From contig JARGFH010000024.1 of NCBI GenBank assembly GCA_029210695.1, positions 1-52,233 of the forward strand: a DNA stretch of 52,233 nt, written 5' to 3'. How positions within the stretch are numbered: the stretch's first letter is position 1; each line of letters begins with the position of its first letter. Position numbers and translations under genes: made by a program. Shown piece after piece: positions 6,294 through 30,476 of the stretch. This stretch comes from Acidimicrobiia bacterium. Its GTDB lineage: Bacteria; Actinomycetota; Acidimicrobiia; Spongiisociales; JAHEDJ01. Below the pieces are notes generated by a model. That model saw nothing but the letters and a program-made list of their open reading frames with translations, did not search any database and was not told where the DNA came from.

Positions 6294-7927
6294 CCGTCAG
6301 TGTCTCGTTTCTTGGTGGATTGGGCGAGATCGGCCGCAACTGCGCCGCGGTCGAGGTCGAAGGCCACCTCTGTCTCATCGATGTCGGACTCATGTTCCCC
6401 GAAGAGGACATGCTCGGCGTCGACCTGGTATTCCCGGACTGGTCGTGGCTGGTGAAACGACGCCAAGACGTCGAATGCGTGATCCTCACCCACGGCCACG
6501 AAGACCATATGGGAGCCCTCGCCTACTTCCTCGGCGACATCAACGTCCCGGTCTATGGGACCAGTCTCGCCCTCCAGATCGCAGCAGGGCGGGTCGAAGA
6601 GCTCGGAGTCAAAGCCGATTGGCGTCCGGTCGACGGTTTCAAGTGGCAACAGCACGGGCCGTTCCGGTTCCAACTGATACCAGTCACCCACTCAATCCCT
6701 GACGCCAGAGGCATCGCCTTCGACACGCCAGAAGGAATCGTCATCCACTCCGGAGACTTCAAACTCGACCCCACCCCCATCGACGGCCGTCCCACCGATC
6801 TGGCCATGTTCGCCGCCCTCGGCACCCGCGGAGTCAGACTGCTGCTTTCGGATTCGACCAACGCCGAATCCCCCGGCTTCACCCCGTCGGAAAGCTCCCT
6901 GGCCCAACCCATCACCGACATAATCCGGGCCGCACCGGGACGGGTCGTAGCCGCCTGCTTCAGCTCCCATGTCCACCGAGTGCAACAGATCGCCGATGCC
7001 GGCCTCGACACCGGACGCAGCATCGCCCTGTTCGGCCGGTCGATGCAACGAAACGCAGGCGTCGCCCGGGACCTCGGCATCCTCCGCATCCCCGAGAAAC
7101 GAATGGTCGACATCGAAGACCTACTCAAGCTGCCCGAGAAAGAACAGCTGCTCATCACGACCGGCAGCCAGGGAGAGCCTTTCGCCGCCCTCTCCCTGAT
7201 GGCCCAGGGTCGGCACCGCTTCCTCGACATCGACCACGAGGACACGGTGATCATCTCGGCCACTCCCATCCCCGGCAACGAGACCGCGGTGTCCCATGTT
7301 GTCAGCCGGCTCCTCCGCCTCGGAGCTGAAGTGTTCCACGGACGTAACGCCCCCGTCCACGTCTCCGGCCACGCCGCCCGCGACGAGCTGTTGACCATGC
7401 TCAACGTGATCCGACCCAAAGCGATGGTCCCGGTCCACGGCGAGTATCGGCACCTCCATGCACACGCCCAGCTCGCCCGACGAGTCGGTATCCCCTTCGT
7501 CGAAGTCCTCGAAGACGGCGACCGGATCACACTCGACGGCCGTAAGACCACGGTCCAACGCCGGGCCTTCGAAGCCGGATACGTATACCTCGACGGCTCA
7601 GGCTTCGGAGAGGTCCAACGCGGTGTGCTCAGAGACCGCGGACATCTCGCCGACGAAGGAGTCGTGGTGGTTACTGTCGCCATCAGCCACGAGACCGGGG
7701 AACTGGTCCACGGGCCCGACCTCGACAGCCATGGCCTCATGGACGACCCCACCTCTGTACTCGACAAAGCAGCCGACGCTATCCGGATCGCGTTGAGCGA
7801 CAAGTCACCATCAAGGACGCCTGATAGAAAAGACCTACAGGCCACGGTGAGGCAGGCGGCTTCCAGGGTGTTCCGAGCCGAAACCTCCCGCAAACCGGTG
7901 ATCATCCCCATCATCCTCGAGCTGTAG
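6290..7927 (+). CDS. rnj: Ribonuclease J
   Basis: 545 residues, metallo-beta-lactamase/beta-CASP nuclease of normal RNase J length. GTG at 6290 overlaps the upstream stop (GTGA). Motifs: FLGGLGEIGRN at the N-terminus, HGHEDH (zinc ligands, about residues 66-71), HSGDFK with the following Asp, and PVHGEYRHL plus HVSGHA of the beta-CASP domain. RNase J is a 5'-3' exo- and endonuclease acting in mRNA decay and rRNA/tRNA maturation. Here it closes an operon with tRNA-modification-like and ADP-ribose genes. The C-terminal tail (VRQAASRVFRAET) matches the dimerisation domain. Confidence 0.95.
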   Translation: MTVSVSFLGGLGEIGRNCAAVEVEGHLCLIDVGLMFPEEDMLGVDLVFPDWSWLVKRRQDVECVILTHGHEDHMGALAYFLGDINVPVYGTSLALQIAAGRVEELGVKADWRPVDGFKWQQHGPFRFQLIPVTHSIPDARGIAFDTPEGIVIHSGDFKLDPTPIDGRPTDLAMFAALGTRGVRLLLSDSTNAESPGFTPSESSLAQPITDIIRAAPGRVVAACFSSHVHRVQQIADAGLDTGRSIALFGRSMQRNAGVARDLGILRIPEKRMVDIEDLLKLPEKEQLLITTGSQGEPFAALSLMAQGRHRFLDIDHEDTVIISATPIPGNETAVSHVVSRLLRLGAEVFHGRNAPVHVSGHAARDELLTMLNVIRPKAMVPVHGEYRHLHAHAQLARRVGIPFVEVLEDGDRITLDGRKTTVQRRAFEAGYVYLDGSGFGEVQRGVLRDRGHLADEGVVVVTVAISHETGELVHGPDLDSHGLMDDPTSVLDKAADAIRIALSDKSPSRTPDRKDLQATVRQAASRVFRAETSRKPVIIPIILEL

Positions 7928-9365: not shown

Positions 9366-9674
9366 TGGGTGTTCACCACAGCGACGGCAAGCCCGGCCAT
9401 CCCATTCGATCTCCCAGACCTTCGAACGGATCGCCGCCAAGGCCGGCGTTCCTAGAAACCGACCCCACGATGTTCGCCTTACTCACGGCACCCTGCTCAC
9501 GAAAGCCGGAGTGCCGATCAAAGTGGTGTCAGAACGTCTCGGACACGGGAACCTGGCCTTCACGATTGACACCTACAGCACGTGCTTCCCGGCCTTCAGG
9601 CCGAAGCAACCCGCATCTTCGAGAGGCTCACCGCCGAAGCTCGGCCCGGAACCACCGGTGGAAGAACCGCATGA
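9366..9674 (+). pseudogene. Tyrosine integrase C-terminal remnant
   Basis: Translation in mixed frames recovers the catalytic C-terminus of a phage-type integrase: HSDGKPGHPIR, SQTFERIAAKAGV, PHDVRLTHGTLLTKAG (box II region with the usual HxLRH degraded to HDVRLTH), VVSERLGHGNLAFTIDTY and then, after a one-base deletion near 9576, HVLPGLQAEATRIFERLT ending with TGA at 9672. At least two frameshifts and loss of the N-terminal half show decay. It lies 50 bp from a tRNA-Met 3' fragment, the expected attachment site of such an element. Confidence 0.8.
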
Positions 9675-9725
9675 CCCGCATGACACGGTAGAAACCCTGG
9701 CCGGCGAGCCGCTGGCCAAGGCATG

Positions 9726-9770
9726 TGGTAGCGGGGGCAGGATTTGAACCCGCGACCTTCGGGTTATGAG
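9726..9770 (-). other. tRNA-Met(CAT) 3' half, attachment-site scar
   Basis: The minus strand reads CTCATAA (anticodon loop with CAT), the variable region, GGTTCAAATCC T-arm, acceptor strand and CCA, so it is the 3' 45 bases of a tRNA-Met. No 5' half is adjacent, so this is not a working tRNA. Integrases of tRNA-borne islands carry exactly such a segment as att core. It marks the left border of the island or the scar of an older one. No full tRNA-Met is in the window. Confidence 0.8.
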
Positions 9771-9968: not shown

Positions 9969-10565
9969 TCAGCCCAACGAGCCCGATACTTGCAGGTAGC
10001 ACCGTTCCTCGGGTAGGTACCGGCCCTGGTACCAGCTCGCCAGTGAGAGTCGGACTAATTCCCCCGGCACAATCGTTGGTGTGGGTTCATCCAGCCCCAC
10101 ATACTTGATCGTCCGACGCTGCCCAAGCACCGCCTCATACCGCGTTTCGTCGGCGTCGAACCGAAGCTCCCGGTCCGCCAACCAGAAGTGGGTGCTCTGG
10201 GATGGGAGGCTGCCGCCAGGCCCCACATACAGCTTCGAGTTCGCCACCGTGAGGGTGTTCTCGAACACATGGTCCAGCTCCCCCTGCCATGGTGTCACCA
10301 GCCCGAGTACTAACCCACGAAGATCAGCAATGTCGCCAATGTATCGCTCTCGGTGGACGACAACGTCTTCGACATGAGGTGGCCGAACCTGCTCCTTTGG
10401 TTCGACGTCCATGTCCCAAGCCTGTCCGACTCTGTAGTGGTCGCGGATGGGGTATTCGCCGGCGACATTGAAAAGCCTGAGGCCGCGGCCATCGTCCAGT
10501 GAGAGCGCCCCTGCGCACGCGCTCGCTACGCCCATATGCGTCCGTCCGACGATGACCGTCTTCAC
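9969..10565 (-). CDS. Dual OB-domain-like protein of DUF488 cassette
   Basis: 198 residues. The MKTVIVGRTHMG opening and the later pattern of short beta strands (LRLFNVAGEYP, IGDIADLRGLVLGLVTPW, ELVRLSLASWYQGR) match proteins described as dual OB-containing that occur beside DUF488 genes. OB folds usually bind nucleic acid or oligonucleotides. Its ATG overlaps the stop of the DUF488 gene upstream by four bases, so the three genes form one translational unit. Family assignment is from memory and moderate; function is unproven. Confidence 0.6.
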   Translation of the reverse strand: MKTVIVGRTHMGVASACAGALSLDDGRGLRLFNVAGEYPIRDHYRVGQAWDMDVEPKEQVRPPHVEDVVVHRERYIGDIADLRGLVLGLVTPWQGELDHVFENTLTVANSKLYVGPGGSLPSQSTHFWLADRELRFDADETRYEAVLGQRRTIKYVGLDEPTPTIVPGELVRLSLASWYQGRYLPEERCYLQVSGSLG

Positions 10566-11056
10566 TCAACCTCCAGATCAACCACCTTCACTCCTGCACC
10601 CTCGGCCAACCATCTCGCTGCCAACGATCTATGGCAAGCGGGCGCAGAGCCCTCGACGCAAAGGATGGCGGGCCGCCGATAGTCCGCCAGACGATCCAGC
10701 AGTTCCCCCGGGTCCTGGAGCGCAAGTACCTCTCTCTCGTATCCAGCTACGAAATCGGGGGCCAATTCGCCGCGGGTTGTTTTGGTGTGAGATGTGGATT
10801 TGTCTGCTTCCTTCTGTTTGTCACGCAGTCGGGTAGACGGGGCCAGATCCTTCCACGACACGACCGCCACACCAGCGCGAGATAGGGCCGCATCGAGTCG
10901 AGAGGCATTGGCGAAGGCGTACCTCGATCCCCGTACAGCACGCCGTTGCCGGACGTCTACCACGATGTCCACGCAGTTTCGCTCGAGGAGATCGAGGAAC
11001 GACTGCTCGGTGTGGCCGTAGACACCGATCGTATAGATGGCGTCGACTTGGGTCAT
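10562..11056 (-). CDS. DUF488 family protein (second paralogue)
   Basis: 164 residues. Family marks: YTIGVYGHTEQSFLDLL at the N-terminus, VVDVRQRRAVRGSRYAF (DVR motif), and the C-terminal CVEGSAPACHRSLAARW with the conserved Cys-x7-Cys-His-Arg. DUF488 proteins are small Rossmann-like proteins, widespread and mostly uncharacterised, often seen in mobile or defence neighbourhoods. It overlaps both neighbours by four bases (ATGA). Clearly diverged from the DUF488 gene upstream, so two paralogues are kept in one operon. Confidence 0.85.
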   Translation of the reverse strand: MTQVDAIYTIGVYGHTEQSFLDLLERNCVDIVVDVRQRRAVRGSRYAFANASRLDAALSRAGVAVVSWKDLAPSTRLRDKQKEADKSTSHTKTTRGELAPDFVAGYEREVLALQDPGELLDRLADYRRPAILCVEGSAPACHRSLAARWLAEGAGVKVVDLEVE

Positions 11057-11670
11057 CGACGGCTTCCATCTCCTGAGTATTGCTGAACCGAATGGTGGAC
11101 GCGGTCATCGAACTCGAACGTCTGTTGGCCACCCTTCACCCGCTCCATCACTTCGGCGTGCGGTGTCAGACACCCATCGACTTCGATATGGACCACGTTA
11201 AAACCGAAGGTGTCTACGAGCGCTTCGCCAATCAGCTTTGTTCTGTGGCAGGTTTCGGGACGCCCTTCGCTGCAGAGCAAGCAGACCTTGTAGCAGCGTT
11301 CCACCCCCCGCCTAACGCGTTCCAGGCCGCTCTTGAAGTAGTCCCGCGCACGCACGCTTGCGTAGTCGACCCGTCCATCAGGCGTATAGCATTCTGCATC
11401 ATCGGGTCGGCCACCGAGCTCCGCCCCCAGGAAGACGTACTCGACGTCGACTGCCTTCAAGGCGTACTGAAGCTCAGGGCCATTGAACTCAGGGCGATGA
11501 CGGGAATAGGGCATAGAGCGCACATCGGCCACGTGGGTGACGCCGCCGGAGCCAAGCCGCTTGATGAACCCCTCGAGTGTGTCTCCGCCGTATCCGATGG
11601 TGAGCACCGAGTGACTCTCACCAGGCTGCAGGGGTCGCCTCAGCTGTGCGTTATCAGGATGCAGTGTCAC
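11053..11670 (-). CDS. DUF488 family protein (first paralogue)
   Basis: 205 residues from a GTG at 11670; an in-frame upstream start at 11736 would add 22 residues with little conservation. Motifs: VLTIGYGGDTLEGFIKRL, VADVRSMPYSRHRPEF (DVR-S-PxS as in canonical DUF488) and CLLCSEGRPETCHRTKL with the conserved CxxC...CHR. This is the more typical family member of the pair. The C-terminal extension (about residues 165-205, with QQTFEFDD) is extra. First gene of the three-gene cassette; AGGATC precedes the GTG. Confidence 0.85.
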   Translation of the reverse strand: MTLHPDNAQLRRPLQPGESHSVLTIGYGGDTLEGFIKRLGSGGVTHVADVRSMPYSRHRPEFNGPELQYALKAVDVEYVFLGAELGGRPDDAECYTPDGRVDYASVRARDYFKSGLERVRRGVERCYKVCLLCSEGRPETCHRTKLIGEALVDTFGFNVVHIEVDGCLTPHAEVMERVKGGQQTFEFDDRVHHSVQQYSGDGSRR

Positions 11671-11752: not shown

Positions 11753-12301
11753 TCATTGAATCCGGTCCTGCGTCGAGCTCAAGAGCGGACCAAGGGGCTT
11801 TGGGGGTGCCTCCCTTCGCTTCCTCGCAGCGATCCGTCGCATGCGTTGTTGCACGAGGTATGCGGCACGCTCGAGGGGCAGGATCTCGTTCTTTGTTCGA
11901 AGGGCCCGGACGCACACGGGTTCGGTCGCCGCCACCAGGAGGGACTCCCATTCAGCGGCCGTCCGGAACACGAGCACCACCATCTCGTCTCTCTTGAACT
12001 GGCGCCCTCGAGGGTCGAGCCAAATGACCGATTCCTCTTGTTCCGCGCAAAGCAGGATCATGTCGTGATTCGACGTCACCACAACCTGGCCCGTATTTCT
12101 CGCGTGGCTAAGAACATCCTCGTCGGAGGAACCCCGGACGGGAGACCCATCGTCGTCGTGCCCTACCCAGCTGGCGTTGTAGCCGAGGACTCGCAGCGCT
12201 GCGGGCACTCTCCACGGGAGCTGCTCGTCGAAAAAAAGCCGAATTCGCGGAGACCTTCGCCGAGCCGTTGGTCTCTCCTCACGCAGCCCGTTCGTACTCA
12301 A
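11753..12301 (-). CDS. DUF5615 PIN-like toxin
   Basis: 182 residues from a TTG at 12301. Core IRLFFDEQLPWRVPAALR, then SSDEDVLSHARNTGQVVVTSNHDM fits the Mut7-C/DUF5615 PIN-like fold, with acidic residues D25, E26, D64-E65-D66-type and D84 as metal-ligand candidates. Such proteins are predicted RNases paired with DUF433 antitoxins. The gene overlaps the DUF433 gene end by 23 bases. The C-terminal 60 residues (basic, QQRMRRIAARKRRE) exceed the minimal fold. Confidence 0.75.
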   Translation of the reverse strand: MSTNGLREERPTARRRSPRIRLFFDEQLPWRVPAALRVLGYNASWVGHDDDGSPVRGSSDEDVLSHARNTGQVVVTSNHDMILLCAEQEESVIWLDPRGRQFKRDEMVVLVFRTAAEWESLLVAATEPVCVRALRTKNEILPLERAAYLVQQRMRRIAARKRREAPPKPLGPLLSSTQDRIQ

Positions 12302-12911
12302 GTGCGGCCTCCACTTCGGATACGCCGAGGTGGAGGTCTTCGGCGATGTCTTCGAGATCCTCTTCCGCCTCAGCGAGTTCCGCGATGACCCGCGTCGGTA
12401 CCCGAGTGCCGTCGATGCACGGTGCTCCGGCTTGGACGGCGGGGTTCACCCAAACACCAGATCTCGGCCGCCAAACCGCAGCAAGTTGATCGGATCCGTA
12501 TTCGATGGGCCTGAGCAGGTCACGGACCACAAGCTCAAAAGCTCCTTGTCCGCCCTTTCCAACGTCGACCCAATCGCCAACCTTGCCAAAGAAGGCTGCT
12601 CCGGCCGTTGCCAGCTTTTCATGTGCGAATGGGTAGCTCGTCTTCAGCTTCGTGGCGAGGTAGTCGGCCCCAGCCCTGATTTCCCGCTTGGGAACCTTTC
12701 GCTCAACCAACTCGGAGACCACAAGGAGGCTGACCACATCGAGGAAGGAGAGGAACCTGGTGTCGGCTACCGGGTAGAGCGGCTGCTTCCCTCGTATCCA
12801 TCGAGCGATCGTGTCGGGATCGCGCCGAACGAGGCGGGCGGTCTCGACCAAGTCGTAGATACCCCTGCCGAGCAACCGATCAGCCATGTCAGCCCGCTCC
12901 TTGGTACCCAT
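12279..12911 (-). CDS. DUF433 antitoxin with N-terminal HTH
   Basis: 210 residues from ATG 12911, preceded by GAGAGGAG at good spacing. The N-terminal third (DRLLGRGIYDLVETARLV, DTIARWIRG) reads as a MerR-like HTH. The C-terminal 70 residues carry the DUF433 mark (APCIDGTRVPTRVIAELAEA then DLHLGVSEVEAALEY). The family is the antitoxin partner of DUF5615 PIN-like toxins and represses its own operon. It sits 72 bp after hsdR on the same strand, so it may be co-transcribed with the restriction operon. Confidence 0.8.
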   Translation of the reverse strand: MGTKERADMADRLLGRGIYDLVETARLVRRDPDTIARWIRGKQPLYPVADTRFLSFLDVVSLLVVSELVERKVPKREIRAGADYLATKLKTSYPFAHEKLATAGAAFFGKVGDWVDVGKGGQGAFELVVRDLLRPIEYGSDQLAAVWRPRSGVWVNPAVQAGAPCIDGTRVPTRVIAELAEAEEDLEDIAEDLHLGVSEVEAALEYERAA

Positions 12912-12983
12912 GGTCCGCTCCTCTCGCGGTCGCCAGCCGTCACTTGGCAAACTACACCCCACCCGTGACGAGGTTCGGTCGTA

Positions 12984-15900
12984 TCACGCCTTTCCCCAGC
13001 GTTGGGCGATGTACTTCTGTTTCTCGTCCGCGTCGGTGAATTCGTGGGTCTTGTTGTTGAGACGCACGTAGAAGGCGGTCTTCTTCAGGTGCTGGCCGTT
13101 CATGACCACGGTCACCTCGGCGTCAACCGGAAAGCCCGACGGCTTGACGTGGACCCGGCACAGGTCCTTGCCATCGATCGTGTGAATCTGGGTGGATACG
13201 TTGGCTACGGCAGCGTCACCCATCGACGCCTGGACGATCTGCGTGAGGTGGAGCTGGAACAGGTCGGCATCGTCCTTGCCTTCCTTGGCGAGGCCGGCGT
13301 AGTCGGAATCAAGACCCGCAACCGTGCCGTCGTCGGCAACCCCGATCAGCAGAGTGCCTCCGGACGGCGAGTTGAGGAATGCGGCGATCGTCTTCAGTGA
13401 AGCGGTCTCGAGCGGCTTGAAAACCTCCCCGCCATCGGCGTGGGTGCGGAGCGTCGACTTGTACTCGATCGACGCCGTCTCTCCGGCGGCAAGCAGGTCG
13501 CCGATTGGGATCCATTGCTGGCTGGCCACCTTGGCGGCGGCGTAGGCGCCGGGCAGGGTGGCACCGATCAGCTTGCTGAATAGCTCCGGATCGTCGAGCA
13601 GCTTGTAGGTGAAGTCTTCGTGGGCTTTGGCCATGTCGATCATGGCGTTCTGGAAGAAGTCGCTGTAGACCTCCCCAAACGCCTTCTCGTCGTTCGCCCA
13701 GGCCACCCCTTGCACGTCCTCGTCGGCGACCAGGGCATCCACGATCGTTCTGGTGTGCACGGCCTGGGCATCGGTGAAGCGGGTGCCGAACCGCTCGTTC
13801 ATCTGGGCGATGATCTCCGACAGCGGTGCCTCGTCCGGGGCGTAGATCTTCCCGGCTCCACTGAAGATGGTCACGACCTCGCCCTCCACATCGGGGTCGA
13901 GCGACGCCGACCCTTCGGAGGTCTTCTCCAACGCCAGGTGGGTGAGCTCGACCTGGCTGCCCAGATCTACCCCGGGTTCGGCGTCGGCGCGGATGAACGG
14001 GGCCAACGCCCTGGCGAAGAGGTAGTCACGTTCGAGCTTGGTGTCACCGAACGACACTACCTGGGACAGGAACGAGTAGATGCGGATGAACCGGTGCAGG
14101 GCGTCACGGAAGGCGTCCTGCTCGTCGGTGTCGAGATCGTGATGGAACCGGTCGATGGCCGGCGCCAACGCCCCGTGGATGCGGGCGTGGTTGGCCGAGG
14201 CGTCGGTGAGCAGCAGAGTCACGACGGTATGAACTTCTTCGGGATGAAGGATCCCATACCCGCCCAGTTCGCCGTGGGTGTTGTACAGCAGGTGGGGGTC
14301 GGTGGGCGGCGCCACGGTCTGGACGTACCAGGGGGCGAAGGATGTGCGGATGTCCTCGGCTTCGTTGCGGAAGTCGAGCACGAACGTCCCGGTTTTGTCG
14401 GGGTGGGTGCGGTTGAGCCGGGAAAGCGTCTGCACCGCCGCCAACCCGGTGAGGACCTTGTCGACGTACATGGAGTAGAGCTTGGGCTGATCGAACCCGG
14501 TCTGGTACTTCTCGGCGACCACGAGGATGTGGTTGTCGTCCTCGTCGAAGCGGCGGGTGGTCTGGGTTTCGGGGAAGCCGTTGAGGTTGGATTCGGTGAC
14601 CTTCTCCCCATCGACGGTGAGCGAGTCTGAGAAGGCGACGAGCACGCCGATGTCGCCGTGACCGTTCTCATTGCAGTACCTCTTGAGCGCCTGCGAGTAG
14701 CGGACGGCGTGGAGCCGTGACGAGGTGACGACCATCGCCTTGGCCTTCCCTCGCATCCTGGGGCGGACGTGCTGGCGGTAGTGCTCGATGATGACCTCTG
14801 CCTTCTGGGCGAGGTTGTGCTCGTGGAAAGCGACGAACCGGGCGATCGCTGCCTTGGCCTTATCGGTCTCGTATTTGGGGTCGTCCTCCACCGCCTTCTC
14901 GATCCGCCAATACGTCTTGTAAGTGGTGTAGTTGGCGAGTACGTCCCAGATGAACCCCTCTTCGATGGCCTGGCGCATCGAGTACAGATGGGACGGCTCG
15001 TGCTTGCCGGTATCGGGGTTGAGCCTGCCGAACATCTCAAGGGTCCGGCCCTTGGGGGTGGCGGTAAAGGCGAAAAAGCTCAGGTTGGGCTGCTGGCCAC
15101 GGGCGGTAACCTCGGCCAGCAGCGCCTCCTCGGCAGGGTCCCCGACCTCAACCGTCAGTGACGCCTCGACGGCCTCCGCCTGCGCCAGTTCGGTCTCCGC
15201 ATCGGAGCCGGCGCCGCCGAGCACCTTCTTCAAGTCTTTGGCCGCTTCGCCGGTCTGACTGGAATGGGCCTCGTCGATGATCACGGCATAGCGGCGCGAC
15301 GGTAGCGCCCCCACCTTGTCGAGAACGAACGGGAACTTCTGCAGGGTGGTGATGATGATGCGGGCCTGCTCCCCGGTGAGGGCCTCGGCGAGCTGGGTGG
15401 AGTCAATGTCGATCTTCTGCACCACTCCGTGGGCGTGCTCGAACTGGTAGATGGTGTCCTGGAGCTGACGGTCGAGCACCACCCGGTCGGTGATCACCAC
15501 CACCTTGTTGAACACCTTGACGTCCCCGGCGTGCAGGCTAGACAGCCGGTGAGCCAGCCAGGCGATCGTGTTCGACTTGCCCGACCCGGCCGAATGCTGC
15601 ACCAGATAGGAATGACCGGCGCCCTCGGTCCGTGCCGCTTCCTCCAACTGCCGCACCGCGTCCCACTGGTGGAAGCGGGGGAAGATCATCGTGGCCGGCT
15701 TCTTCGAACCCTTGGCGGCGGGCTCGACGTGGAGGAACCGGGCAAGGATGTCGAGCCAGGCATCCTTCTGCCACACCGACTCCCACAGATAGGCGCTCCG
15801 GTGCCCCGCCGGGTTGGGCGGGTTCCCGGCGCCGAGACCGTCACCCCGGTTGAAAGGAAGAAAGACGGTCCGCTCCCCGTCGAGGCGGGTGGTCATGAAC

Positions 15901-16508
15901 ACCTGCTCCGTGTCGACGGCGAAATGAACCAGCGCCCGCCTCAGCGTCAGGTTCTTCGGATCGCGGTCGGTCCGATACTGGGCCTTGGCGTTGTCGACCG
16001 TCTGGCCGGTGAGATGGTTCTTCACCTCGGCGGTGGCGACCGGGATCCCGTTGACGAACAAGCCGAGATCGACGGTCTTGTTGGTTCCCGACTCGTACGG
16101 CAGCTGGCGGGTGACGGTCAGCCGATTGGCTGCGTACCGCTTGGCGAGCACCGGGTTGAGCCCGGAGGCGGGACGGAAGAAGGCAAGGGCGAACTCGGCC
16201 TTCTCATGGCCGGCGTACACCAGAGCGTGGCGGAGCACGTCCACCGTGCCCCGGGCGTCGAGCTCTTTGGTGAGCCGGTCGAGGAATCCGGCCCGAGCGG
16301 CAGCCGGGTCACCGGCGTGGGTCTTCAGCACCTTGGCCCACTCGCCGGGCTGGGTGTCCTCGATGAAGGCGAACAACTCGACGGCGTCGAGACCCCGGCC
16401 GGCGTCGAAGTCGTCGGACTGGGTGCCGAGCTTCCAGTTGGTGTAGCCGCCATGGTCGGCGAGCCATTCGGCGATGTGCGACTCGAACGCCGCCTCGTCC
16501 GGTTTCAT
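12984..16508 (-). CDS. hsdR: Type I restriction subunit R with C-terminal AlbA_2-like domain
   Basis: 1174 residues. Order: PD-(D/E)xK nuclease (D147, E161-V-K163 in TAEVKN), SF2 translocase with Walker A SAGSGKS (about 306-312) and DEAH (412-415), helical middle region, and an unusual C-terminal domain from about 1013 (IEYKSTLRTH, then FLNSPSGGTLLIGVADDG). That tail matches the AlbA_2/Schlafen-like fold. HsdR cuts unmodified DNA after ATP-driven translocation as part of HsdR2M2S. It starts in a four-base overlap with the fic stop. The fused domain may sense or cut nucleic acid; that part is inference. Confidence 0.92.
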   Translation of the reverse strand: MKPDEAAFESHIAEWLADHGGYTNWKLGTQSDDFDAGRGLDAVELFAFIEDTQPGEWAKVLKTHAGDPAAARAGFLDRLTKELDARGTVDVLRHALVYAGHEKAEFALAFFRPASGLNPVLAKRYAANRLTVTRQLPYESGTNKTVDLGLFVNGIPVATAEVKNHLTGQTVDNAKAQYRTDRDPKNLTLRRALVHFAVDTEQVFMTTRLDGERTVFLPFNRGDGLGAGNPPNPAGHRSAYLWESVWQKDAWLDILARFLHVEPAAKGSKKPATMIFPRFHQWDAVRQLEEAARTEGAGHSYLVQHSAGSGKSNTIAWLAHRLSSLHAGDVKVFNKVVVITDRVVLDRQLQDTIYQFEHAHGVVQKIDIDSTQLAEALTGEQARIIITTLQKFPFVLDKVGALPSRRYAVIIDEAHSSQTGEAAKDLKKVLGGAGSDAETELAQAEAVEASLTVEVGDPAEEALLAEVTARGQQPNLSFFAFTATPKGRTLEMFGRLNPDTGKHEPSHLYSMRQAIEEGFIWDVLANYTTYKTYWRIEKAVEDDPKYETDKAKAAIARFVAFHEHNLAQKAEVIIEHYRQHVRPRMRGKAKAMVVTSSRLHAVRYSQALKRYCNENGHGDIGVLVAFSDSLTVDGEKVTESNLNGFPETQTTRRFDEDDNHILVVAEKYQTGFDQPKLYSMYVDKVLTGLAAVQTLSRLNRTHPDKTGTFVLDFRNEAEDIRTSFAPWYVQTVAPPTDPHLLYNTHGELGGYGILHPEEVHTVVTLLLTDASANHARIHGALAPAIDRFHHDLDTDEQDAFRDALHRFIRIYSFLSQVVSFGDTKLERDYLFARALAPFIRADAEPGVDLGSQVELTHLALEKTSEGSASLDPDVEGEVVTIFSGAGKIYAPDEAPLSEIIAQMNERFGTRFTDAQAVHTRTIVDALVADEDVQGVAWANDEKAFGEVYSDFFQNAMIDMAKAHEDFTYKLLDDPELFSKLIGATLPGAYAAAKVASQQWIPIGDLLAAGETASIEYKSTLRTHADGGEVFKPLETASLKTIAAFLNSPSGGTLLIGVADDGTVAGLDSDYAGLAKEGKDDADLFQLHLTQIVQASMGDAAVANVSTQIHTIDGKDLCRVHVKPSGFPVDAEVTVVMNGQHLKKTAFYVRLNNKTHEFTDADEKQKYIAQRWGKA

Positions 16509-27127: not shown

Positions 27128-28798
27128 ATGCACGAGGAACTCCACCAACTCGGAGAAGAGTACTTCGAGGCATACCTGCGACGCTCCCCTACCACGGCGC
27201 TGATGCTCGGGGATCATCGTTACGACGATCAGATGGAAGACCTCTCGCTCGAAGCCGAGGATGCGATCATTGCCGAACTCAGGTCGTTCGCCGACCGGGC
27301 GGAGGCAATCGATCCCACCAGCCTGTCGCCACAGGAAGGCCTCAGCCGCAAGGTGTTGATATTTGAGGCTCGCACCACCGCAGACTTGATGGCAACCCGC
27401 CAGGCGGAACTCGACGCCAATCCGGCGATGAGCGCTCATGTGATGGTCCCCGTCGCGGCCGCCCAGTTCCCGATCGTCGAACCTGGGCATGCCGAGGCAC
27501 TGGTGGCCAAGTACGAGAAGATGGGTCGGGCTATGCGCCAATGGGCGGAGCGCCTTCAGCAGGGAGTCGCCGCCCATCACTCCCCGCCGGCGTTGATGGC
27601 GGAGAAGGTCATCGCCCAATTGGACGACCACCTGGCAAGCCCGATCGAATTTGATCCGCTGGTCGCGGCCGTCCGCGCCCCCGAAGCCTTTGATTCCGCC
27701 GCAACTGCCGTCTGGCGGCAACGGCTCGCCGAGCAGGTTGCGACACAGATTCGACCGGGCTTCGCCGAGTTGCGGCGAGTGCTGGCCGAGGAAGTCCTCC
27801 CGAGCGCCCGATCGGAAGACAAGGTCGGGATCACATGGCTGGCGGGCGGGGATGCAACCTACCGGGCAGCCATCCGTAGCTACACCTCGGTCGATCTGAG
27901 CCCGGAAGAGATCCACCAGATTGGGCTCGACACAATCGCTTCGCTCGAAGACGAGTACCGGGAACTCGGCGCGATCGTATTCGGGACAGATGACCTCCAG
28001 ACGATCTATTCGAAGCTCAAAGACGATCCGGAACTCCGCTACCAGACCGCCGACGAGGTGCTGACGGCGTCGCAGGAGGCGTTTGCCAAGGCGAAATCGA
28101 CCATGGGCGACTGGTTCGGACGGCTCCCCAAGGCCGACTGCCTCGTCTCGACGGTGACGCAGGGTCCCGAGGCGTTCTACTTCCCGCCCGCACAGGACGG
28201 GAGCCGTCCCGGGATCTTCTTCATGAACGTCGCGGATCCGACCTCATGGACGAAATACGAACTGGAGGCCACCGTCTTTCACGAAGGCATCCCCGGACAT
28301 CACCTGCAATTGGCCATCGCCCAGGAACTCGACGACATACCCGAGTTCCGCAAGCACAGCATCGTGACGGCGTACGCCGAAGGATGGGGCCTCTATACGG
28401 AGCGTCTTTCGGACGAGATGGGGATGTACGGAGGTCCGCTCCAAAGGATCGGCATGCTGTCCGCCGATTCATTGCGAGCCTCACGCCTGGTTGTGGACAC
28501 CGGGATGCATGCCCTTGGATGGAGTCGGCGCCAGGCGATCGACTACATGGCCGCCAACATCCCCACCAGCATCACCTCGATCACCAACGAGGTCGACCGC
28601 TACATCGGCGTACCCGGCCAGGCCCTCGCCTACATGATCGGTCGCAAAGAGATCGTCAAGATCAGGGAGCAAGCCGAAGTCACCATGGGCGCCCGATTCG
28701 ACATAAAGGGATTCCACGACACGGTGTTGGGTTCCGGTGCGCTGCCACTGCCGGCGCTGTCGGACCTCGTCAACGGGTGGGCGGCAGGAAGTGCCTAG
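27128..28798 (+). CDS. DUF885 family peptidase-like protein (copy 1)
   Basis: 556 residues, the normal size for DUF885. The zinc-site motif FHEGIPGHHLQ (about 385-395) with its HExxxHH pattern, and AEGWGLYTERL with the downstream Glu, are intact. DUF885 proteins are predicted metallopeptidases related to the M3/M32-like gluzincin group; substrates are mostly unknown. No signal peptide is seen, so it is cytoplasmic. It is followed at once by a paralogue, whose GTG overlaps its stop. The ATG is preceded by GAAGGGCAGG. Confidence 0.88.
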   Translation: MHEELHQLGEEYFEAYLRRSPTTALMLGDHRYDDQMEDLSLEAEDAIIAELRSFADRAEAIDPTSLSPQEGLSRKVLIFEARTTADLMATRQAELDANPAMSAHVMVPVAAAQFPIVEPGHAEALVAKYEKMGRAMRQWAERLQQGVAAHHSPPALMAEKVIAQLDDHLASPIEFDPLVAAVRAPEAFDSAATAVWRQRLAEQVATQIRPGFAELRRVLAEEVLPSARSEDKVGITWLAGGDATYRAAIRSYTSVDLSPEEIHQIGLDTIASLEDEYRELGAIVFGTDDLQTIYSKLKDDPELRYQTADEVLTASQEAFAKAKSTMGDWFGRLPKADCLVSTVTQGPEAFYFPPAQDGSRPGIFFMNVADPTSWTKYELEATVFHEGIPGHHLQLAIAQELDDIPEFRKHSIVTAYAEGWGLYTERLSDEMGMYGGPLQRIGMLSADSLRASRLVVDTGMHALGWSRRQAIDYMAANIPTSITSITNEVDRYIGVPGQALAYMIGRKEIVKIREQAEVTMGARFDIKGFHDTVLGSGALPLPALSDLVNGWAAGSA

Positions 28799-30476
28799 CC
28801 GGTCGGAGGTCCTCGTGGATCTCGCCCGGCGTTACTGGGATCACGTCAGCGCCACCAACCCCACCACGGCTCTGCTCAACGGAGATCACCGATTCGACGA
28901 CCAGATGGAGGACGTCACCCGGGCAGCGGAGGACACCTCCATCGGCGCCCTGGAGGGCTTCGCCGCCGAGGCCGAACGCCTCGATCCAACTTCTCTGACA
29001 GAGGATGAGCGCGTTTCGCGGGCTGTGCTCATTCAAGAGGCGGCTGCTCAGGCTGCTGAACTCCGTTCACGATATGCGGAAACGACCGTCAGTTCGGTGA
29101 TGGGTTTCCACGTCAACCTCCAGAGCGTCGCGCCGCAATTCCCGATCTTGGATCCGGAACACGCCCGGGCACTGGTCGGGAAGTATCAGAAGATCGGTGG
29201 GATGTTCGACGACACGATCAAACGGCTGCGACAGGGAATTGCGAGAGACCGGACACCGCCTGCAGTTGCCGTAGAGCGGACCATCGAACAGATCGACGGC
29301 TACCTGGCCACTCCGATCGAAACGGACCTGTTCATGGGTGTGTGCTCTCCTGCGGCATTCGACGAGTCGGCCGAACGGTCGTGGCGATCGGAACTAGCAG
29401 GGGTGGTCGAGCAAGAGATCCGCCCCGCCTACCGGCGATACCGGGACGCCCTCGCAGATGAGGTGCTCGAGAAGGCTCGACCGCAGGAGAAGGTTGGTGT
29501 GGCCTGGCTTCCCGACGGTGAGGAGGTATACAGGCGAGCGATCGCCCGCCACACCACGCTGGACCTGACTCCGATGGAGGTTCACCGGATCGGACTCGAG
29601 ACCGTCGAGTCGCTCGCCGACGAATACCGGGGCTTGGGCGGCCGGGTTCTGGGAACAACCGACCTCCAAGAGATCTTCGGGCGCCTGCGCAGCGATCCTG
29701 ACCTGCGATTCAAAGACGCCGGCGAGGTGCGCAATGGGGCAGCGCGGGCACTGGCCAGAGCGAAGGAGGCCATTCCCGATTGGTTCGGGCGCCTCCCGGC
29801 GGCGGACTGCATCGTGGTCGATATCCCGGACGTTGCCGCACAGGACGCCACGATCGCCTACTACCTGCAGCCGGCCGCGGATGGAAGCAGGCCGGGGACC
29901 TACTACATCAACGTGTCGGAGCCGACCACGAGAACTACGTTCGAGTCTGAGGTGCTGGCGTTCCATGAGAGCATCCCCGGCCACCATCTGCAGGTCGCCA
30001 TCGCCCAGGAACTCGAGGGTATCCCGGAGTTCAGGCGGCATGCCTGGATCACGGCCTACGGAGAGGGATGGGGCCTCTACACGGAGCGACTCTCTGACGA
30101 GATGGGGTTGTACTCGGGCGACATCGCCCGGCTCGGGATCCTGTCGTTCGACTCGTGGCGGGCCTGCCGGTTGGTCGTCGACACGGGGCTCCACGCCCTC
30201 GGCTGGAGCAGACGGGAAGCAATCGACTACCTGATAGAGAACTCGCCGCAGGCACCGAACAACATCACCAACGAGGTCGACCGCTACATAGCCTGGCCTG
30301 GCCAGGCTCTCGCCTACAAGATCGGCCAGCGCGAGATCATCCGCCTGCGAGACGATGCACGCCTAGCGATGGGTGACCGCTTCGATATCAGGGATTTCCA
30401 CGACGTCGTGCTCGGTTCGGGCCCGGTGCCGCTATCAGTGTTGGGAGACCTCGTGGCGGAGTGGGCCAACTCCTGA
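28791..30476 (+). CDS. DUF885 family peptidase-like protein (copy 2)
   Basis: 561 residues from GTG 28791, inside the last codons of copy 1. The N-termini of the two copies align around NPTTALLNGDHRFDDQMED, which fixes this start. Zinc-site motif FHESIPGHHLQ and GEGWGLYTERL are conserved. The tandem pair has diverged widely but keeps the catalytic residues in both, so subfunction or a heterodimer is more likely than redundancy. A hairpin repeat follows the stop. Confidence 0.88.
   Translation: MPSRSEVLVDLARRYWDHVSATNPTTALLNGDHRFDDQMEDVTRAAEDTSIGALEGFAAEAERLDPTSLTEDERVSRAVLIQEAAAQAAELRSRYAETTVSSVMGFHVNLQSVAPQFPILDPEHARALVGKYQKIGGMFDDTIKRLRQGIARDRTPPAVAVERTIEQIDGYLATPIETDLFMGVCSPAAFDESAERSWRSELAGVVEQEIRPAYRRYRDALADEVLEKARPQEKVGVAWLPDGEEVYRRAIARHTTLDLTPMEVHRIGLETVESLADEYRGLGGRVLGTTDLQEIFGRLRSDPDLRFKDAGEVRNGAARALARAKEAIPDWFGRLPAADCIVVDIPDVAAQDATIAYYLQPAADGSRPGTYYINVSEPTTRTTFESEVLAFHESIPGHHLQVAIAQELEGIPEFRRHAWITAYGEGWGLYTERLSDEMGLYSGDIARLGILSFDSWRACRLVVDTGLHALGWSRREAIDYLIENSPQAPNNITNEVDRYIAWPGQALAYKIGQREIIRLRDDARLAMGDRFDIRDFHDVVLGSGPVPLSVLGDLVAEWANS

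Follow-up and report, generated by a model that had tools for sequence, protein, structure and literature searches.

The window, that is, the whole 52,233-nucleotide stretch of DNA from an Acidimicrobiia bacterium analysed here, carries on its reverse strand three consecutive genes for two DUF488 proteins, designated DUF488-B and DUF488-C, and a dual OB-containing protein, designated DuOB (Table 1). The coordinates and gene content given for this cassette by an earlier sequence-only reading were confirmed by the sequence and by Pfam matches. In the Pfam comparison both DUF488 proteins matched PF04343 (threshold 22.2), with 69.4 bits (5.5e-19) for B and 46.8 bits (5.5e-12) for C, and C also matched PF22751 (DUF488-N3a, "Active DUF488-N3 subclade"; 8.7e-8, 32.9 bits, threshold 27), a family matched at E 0.001 by 54 of the 55 aligned C rows. 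The DuOB match to PF22557 is full-length (residues 4-195; 2e-6, 28.4 bits, cut-off 27), while the same protein reached 24.3 bits in the six-frame genome search, below the cut-off, so that its membership is marginal. The start of DUF488-B is probably the GTG at 11605-11607, because its homologues begin just before a "TIG" motif; a longer form from another GTG is possible.

Both joints of the cassette are four-base overlaps, as had been proposed; ATGA, earlier ascribed to both of them, is found at the B/C joint, but at the C/DuOB joint the GTG start of DuOB makes the overlap GTGA. The D-V-R and C-x-E...C-H-R motifs, also described as intact at that time, are unbroken in the two DUF488 proteins of the window, and seven of their residues do not vary in any of the 55 aligned rows of the respective protein: D28, R30, C112, E114, C120, H121, and R122 in B (numbering from GTG 11607) and D34, R36, C133, E135, C141, H142, and R143 in C. 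Both enzymes thereby keep the catalytic-type cysteine loop (C112/C120 in B, C133/C141 in C) that is a feature of the rhodanese-phosphatase superfamily.

Table 1. Features of the cassette and its immediate surroundings (positions in the window)
Feature	Position	Strand	Basis
DUF488-B, apparently exchangeable enzyme slot	11053..11607, possible longer form from GTG 11670	(-)	PF04343, PDC-M45B
DUF488-C, divergent "IGVYG...DVRQRRxVRG" subfamily	10562..11056	(-)	PF04343, PF22751
DuOB, dual OB-containing protein, GTG start	9969..10565	(-)	PF22557
ATGA overlap, B stop / C start	11053..11056	(-)	sequence
GTGA overlap, C stop / DuOB start	10562..10565	(-)	sequence
tRNA-Met 3' fragment, 39 bases, left island edge next to the cassette	9731..9769	(-)	exact pattern
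Neighbour pair outside the conserved cassette, directly upstream: DUF433 (12279-12962) and DUF5615 PIN-like (11753-12301)	11753..12962	(-)	Pfam

The island to which the cassette belongs also bears genes for type I restriction, Fic, and toxin-antitoxin functions; the cassette is its leftmost, outermost cargo, and in this respect the earlier description holds. The tRNA-Met fragment that marks the island edge has an intact copy with one mismatch on another contig (G000:C6:37324-37362). Rightward of the cassette the order is the DUF433/DUF5615 genes, which are a probable toxin-antitoxin pair, a type I set (HsdR, HsdS, and HsdM), a SoFic-type Fic protein, a pRiA4b ORF3-like protein, a TrwC relaxase, and a tyrosine integrase that adjoins tRNA-Arg. 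Three further observations concern this region and the rest of the window. The HsdR-like subunit (12984-16508, reverse strand) bears a C-terminal Schlafen AlbA_2 domain (residues 1010-1156), which is an unusual fusion. A short open reading frame at 9511-9747 on the forward strand, which has no Pfam match and ends beside the tRNA-Met fragment, resembles by eye the C-terminal part of a tyrosine integrase and is a probable remnant of an older element. Outside the island, at 28172-30341, two stretches are repeated with a spacing of 1684 bases (258 nt at 71% and 78 nt at 81%), which is probably a tandem gene duplication.

For the survey of relatives the genome contigs were scanned with a profile of four B proteins, the best 80 loci were taken, and a trio was called with local profiles for DuOB, B, and C when all three lay within 2.5 kb on one strand. 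By this measure the three genes are adjacent in 57 of the best 80 loci, across 13 phyla; three loci have B and C without a recognised DuOB, and in 20, several of them at contig ends, B is alone. DuOB thus accompanies 57 of the 60 loci having both B and C among these best 80 B relatives, and three divergent DuOB genes were recognised by reading the neighbours of B-C pairs. The joints in relatives are mostly overlaps or gaps of fewer than 30 bases, with a four-base overlap at 39 of 73 B-C joints, a count favoured by the choice of starts near the upstream stop. Since two gene orders exist, DuOB-B-C in most relatives and B-C-DuOB in the window, adjacency has been kept through rearrangement. The three genes are therefore a real conserved unit, as the sequence-only reading had supposed for a joint system, and the DUF488 pair is not found mostly without the OB gene. 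At L048 a SIR2-like protein (recognised by eye; 6435-7625, forward strand) lies just upstream of a B-C pair without a recognised DuOB and is a possible alternative partner of that pair.

Within the phylum of the window the PADLOC B profile (PDLC04657) matches 101 of 392 genomes, and the scores form two groups. The 13 loci with PDC-M45B scores of at least 170 bits comprise 11 clear trios, one ambiguous case, and one B alone, while neither C nor DuOB was present in any of the 17 weaker-scoring DUF488 loci inspected. The two score groups indicate that solitary DUF488 genes exist, mostly as a separate, lower-scoring population, yet the DUF488 pair goes with DuOB. The best PDC-M45B protein of the phylum (250 bits; L142, G170:C5:3439-4020) is itself without C or DuOB. 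DuOB is patchy in this phylum, with a match in 8 of 396 genomes, and the tree built from B plus C of 55 loci cannot be reconciled with fewer than 21 changes of phylum label among 13 named phyla, consistent with wide and frequent horizontal transfer. In the Phages collection DuOB was absent and DUF488 gave one weak hit, from a Microbacterium phage. Among viral contigs a portal gene lies near the cassette of L023 and integrases near that of L019, and some of the viral-contig cassettes may be prophage-borne.

The C protein and the tree separate a divergent subtype from the other relatives. The C proteins of the window, of Rhodothermus marinus plasmid pRMAR01, and of a Fimbriimonadaceae metagenome-assembled genome (L031) read "IGVYG...DVR-RR-VRG" where canonical C reads "DVRLNNVSQLAGF", and by these sequence features the three cassettes form a common divergent subtype that appears to be new. 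In the B plus C tree the window joins L031, and a long branch with full support sets the two off from the remaining 53 rows; this join is to be read with caution because both rows are long branches. No relative of the subtype was found in viral contigs. Stand-alone "IGVYG" DUF488 proteins occur in 7 of 396 genomes of the same phylum (L173-L179); they share 43-44% identity with the C protein of the window and fall with the cassette C proteins into one clade (99% SH-aLRT), and neither B nor DuOB lies beside them in the 2.6-3.5 kb loci of these seven genomes. They make up a small uncharacterised subfamily of their own.

A second variation concerns the slot of DUF488-B. The plasmid search for DuOB gave 19 records with the Agrobacterium protein and 23 with the Acinetobacter protein, and in all ten plasmid loci inspected a DUF488 of C type or position adjoins DuOB. 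The other gene is DUF488-B in the plasmid loci of R. marinus, Agrobacterium, Rhodovastum, and Allochromatium and DUF4326 in those of two Citrobacter, Klebsiella, Leclercia, Acinetobacter, and Moraxella. The genes of the Moraxella locus are unannotated; the C profile gives 221 bits for the second, and the CFCKP--CHGD motif of DUF4326 is present in the third. In Escherichia coli the DUF4326 form is matched in 3 of 5426 genomes and occupies chromosomal islets, two of which were inspected: one DuOB-DUF488-DUF4326 set lies at icd, in the neighbourhood of mcrA and phage genes (L115, 8335-10018) and the other beside ffs (L116, 8260-9955). For the DUF488 protein of this form the C profile gives 211-224 bits and the B profile 51-59. 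Because C and DuOB are kept where DUF4326 replaces B, the two look, on sequence grounds, like the core of the system and B like an exchangeable second enzyme. The earlier picture of two equivalent paralogues is accordingly too simple, C and B being different subfamilies. DUF4326 is assigned to the rhodanese-phosphatase superfamily, and terminal phosphates carried by ribose are its proposed substrates (PMC9503650); in another study it is proposed to bridge NAD signalling and DNA modification (PMC7824862).

Defence-type genes recur beside the cassettes. Type III CRISPR-type genes adjoin the cassettes of R. marinus and Allochromatium, a CBASS system that of Agrobacterium, and a NotI-type restriction-modification set a Klebsiella cassette. 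The 142 nearest neighbours of genome cassettes matched 203 PADLOC families at 1e-15 against 9 for 142 control proteins, where the controls come from other genomes of the window's phylum and cover fewer phyla than the cassettes, and where the count is of families rather than proteins, partly redundant and inflated by a few specificity subunits and helicases. Visible among the PADLOC matches are specificity subunits of type I systems, Fic proteins, and Gabija-like helicases, and the Pfam matches among neighbours include Cas1, Schlafen, PIN, and ThiF/DUF6791. Many cassettes also adjoin ordinary metabolic genes. Taken together, this context makes a defence role of the cassette rather likely.

The structure model of DuOB is of medium confidence (mean pLDDT 68.6), and the first 88 residues resemble the OB folds of SSB, RPA, BRCA2, RecO, telomere end-binding proteins, and tRNA-synthetase domains (best Z 7.2), so that the model supports an OB fold in the N-terminal half, while the C-terminal half falls to pLDDT 40-47 in places and residues 121-160 are poorly modelled. 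By sequence the closest solved relative of DuOB is only 3f2z at E 0.23, and no solved relative was found for B or C at E 0.1. The C protein is modelled by AlphaFold2 as Rossmannoid (mean pLDDT 87.7), with the N-terminal domain of diphthine synthase and CbiL as the nearest solved folds (Z 8.0-8.4, rmsd 3.3, 105-122 residues); these matches stand at about the level of common arrangements and, as far as the model goes, are too weak to point to a chemistry. No rhodanese, phosphatase, or RapZ chains are among the VIA-align rows listed for the C model, an absence that proves nothing.

In the reading preferred here the trio is one unit, probably a complex, that serves as mobile cargo and acts in conflicts with phages or mobile DNA via nucleic-acid or nucleotide termini; as a whole this explanation is rated the best of those considered, with an even chance of being right. 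Mobile islands and plasmids would carry the trio as an accessory, and DuOB would bind nucleic acid, likely single strands or ends, via its OB folds. The two DUF488 proteins would be cysteine-dependent Rossmannoid enzymes with D-x-R and C-x-E...CHR loops that work one after the other or jointly on the terminal phosphates or ribose of nucleic acids or nucleotides, and invading nucleic acid marked or processed by them would be the means of protection against mobile DNA. C plus DuOB would be the constant core, with DUF488-B as the second enzyme here and DUF4326 in the enterobacterial variant. The parts of this proposal differ in strength: nucleic-acid binding by DuOB, predicted from its fold, can be expected with good confidence, complex formation by the cassette proteins is likely, and terminal phosphate or ribose chemistry of DUF488 is plausible, a little short of an even call. 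More tentatively, the distinct subtype may be one in which an otherwise solitary "IGVYG" family fills the canonical N3a slot, DUF488-B and DUF4326 sharing the other, within a modular two-enzyme, DuOB-centred antiviral system that modifies nucleic-acid ends by a mechanism unlike any validated defence system.

The same end-cleaning chemistry would suit repair as much as defence, and the trio might serve mobile elements or hosts as a module for repair of DNA or RNA, or for stress, in which damaged ends held by DuOB have their terminal phosphates cleaned by the enzymes, without a direct part in antiviral defence. The OB matches of DuOB to RecO, RPA, and telomere end-binding proteins would agree with this, as would the ssDNA-binding proteins borne by some carrier plasmids. 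However, the patchy distribution in the phylum (8 of 396 genomes with a DuOB match) and the mobility are unusual for repair genes, and restriction, CRISPR, and CBASS neighbours recur, which leaves a repair module unlikely. Somewhat less probable still is that the enzymes make or remove a signal, acting on diffusible nucleotides that stem from NAD or ADP-ribose with DuOB as the sensor, and not on nucleic-acid ends. This possibility draws on DUF4326, the replacement of B, for which the proposed substrates are ribose phosphates in ADP-ribose and in the products of its breakdown (PMC9503650) and a link between NAD signalling and DNA modification is suggested (PMC7824862); against it, DuOB is OB-like, and none of the inspected cassettes, many of whose neighbours are hypothetical proteins, has an annotated Macro, NADAR, or SLOG gene next to it.

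The tight translational coupling, the cassettes on small plasmids beside addiction genes, and the chance that the cassette of the window follows the DUF433/DUF5615 pair in one transcript would fit a toxin-antitoxin or plasmid-maintenance module with one toxic enzyme restrained by another part. Such a module is improbable, however, as all catalytic-type residues are kept in both enzymes, no part resembles a small antitoxin, and B is alone in 20 of the best 80 loci. A chance grouping of three unrelated genes, although islands collect unrelated cargo and DUF488 genes without partners are common, is ruled out for practical purposes by the survey, where the trio is kept in 57 of the best 80 relatives, in 13 phyla and two orders.

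The value of the cassette lies in narrowing a general question. DUF488 is without a settled function, and an OB-fold partner together with an exchangeable second enzyme reduces the matter to a testable one, namely, the action of paired DUF488 or DUF4326 enzymes on nucleic-acid or ribose ends, for which the E. coli version offers inexpensive material. The divergent subtype also indicates that part of the DuOB family is missed by the PADLOC M45A models.

Among known systems the closest is the PADLOC candidate PDC-M45, in which A is DuOB and B and C are DUF488 proteins; it is a trio of the kind found in the window, because PDLC04656 and PF22557 match the same gene of genome G173 and 43 of 50 DuOB relatives match M45A. 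The cassette therefore cannot be called undescribed, as the sequence-only reading had it, since the trio has an entry in PADLOC-DB, PDC-M45 A/B/C, and both DuOB and DUF488-N3a are named families in Pfam. Such PDC entries come from a "guilt-by-embedding" approach and are for the most part candidates without validation (PMC12988326). In the literature searched neither a mention of PDC-M45 by name nor experiments on any cassette member were found. The window shares the three gene kinds of PDC-M45, and its B protein matches M45B with 171.8 bits (3.3e-51). It differs in that its DuOB has no PADLOC family match at E 0.1, its C matches M45C weakly (32.9 bits) and about equally PDC-M19A (34.8) and M45B (32.4), and its order is B-C-DuOB against DuOB-B-C in most relatives. 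Both DUF488 proteins of the window (10562-11607) match the C-terminal half of PDC-M19A (PDLC04505), and DUF488 may occur in more than one candidate defence system.

The R. marinus pRMAR01 cassette (RMAR_RS14230-RS14975) resembles that of the window in the order B-C-DuOB and in the C subfamily, with identities of 41% for C and 31% for DuOB, and its DuOB likewise matches neither M45A nor another PADLOC family; it differs in lying on a plasmid beside cas1, cas2, cas6, and csm6, whereas the window cassette lies in a restriction island. The DuOB-DUF488-DUF4326 set of E. coli islets and of enterobacterial, Acinetobacter, and Moraxella plasmids has in common with the window DuOB, a C-family DUF488, and a compact operon, while its second enzyme is DUF4326 in the slot that DUF488-B takes in the window. 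At a wider level, Burroughs and Aravind reportedly defined in 2023 the RapZ-C/DUF488/DUF4326 clade of the rhodanese-phosphatase superfamily and predicted DNA-end-processing roles for it in conflict systems; the cassette is linked to this clade by DUF488 membership and the conserved cysteine loop. In summary, the cassette is already catalogued as a candidate, of which the window holds a divergent version, and what appears to be new, as judged from sequence comparison, is the subtype of the window, R. marinus, and Fimbriimonadaceae and the exchange of B for DUF4326 in enterobacteria, Acinetobacter, and Moraxella.
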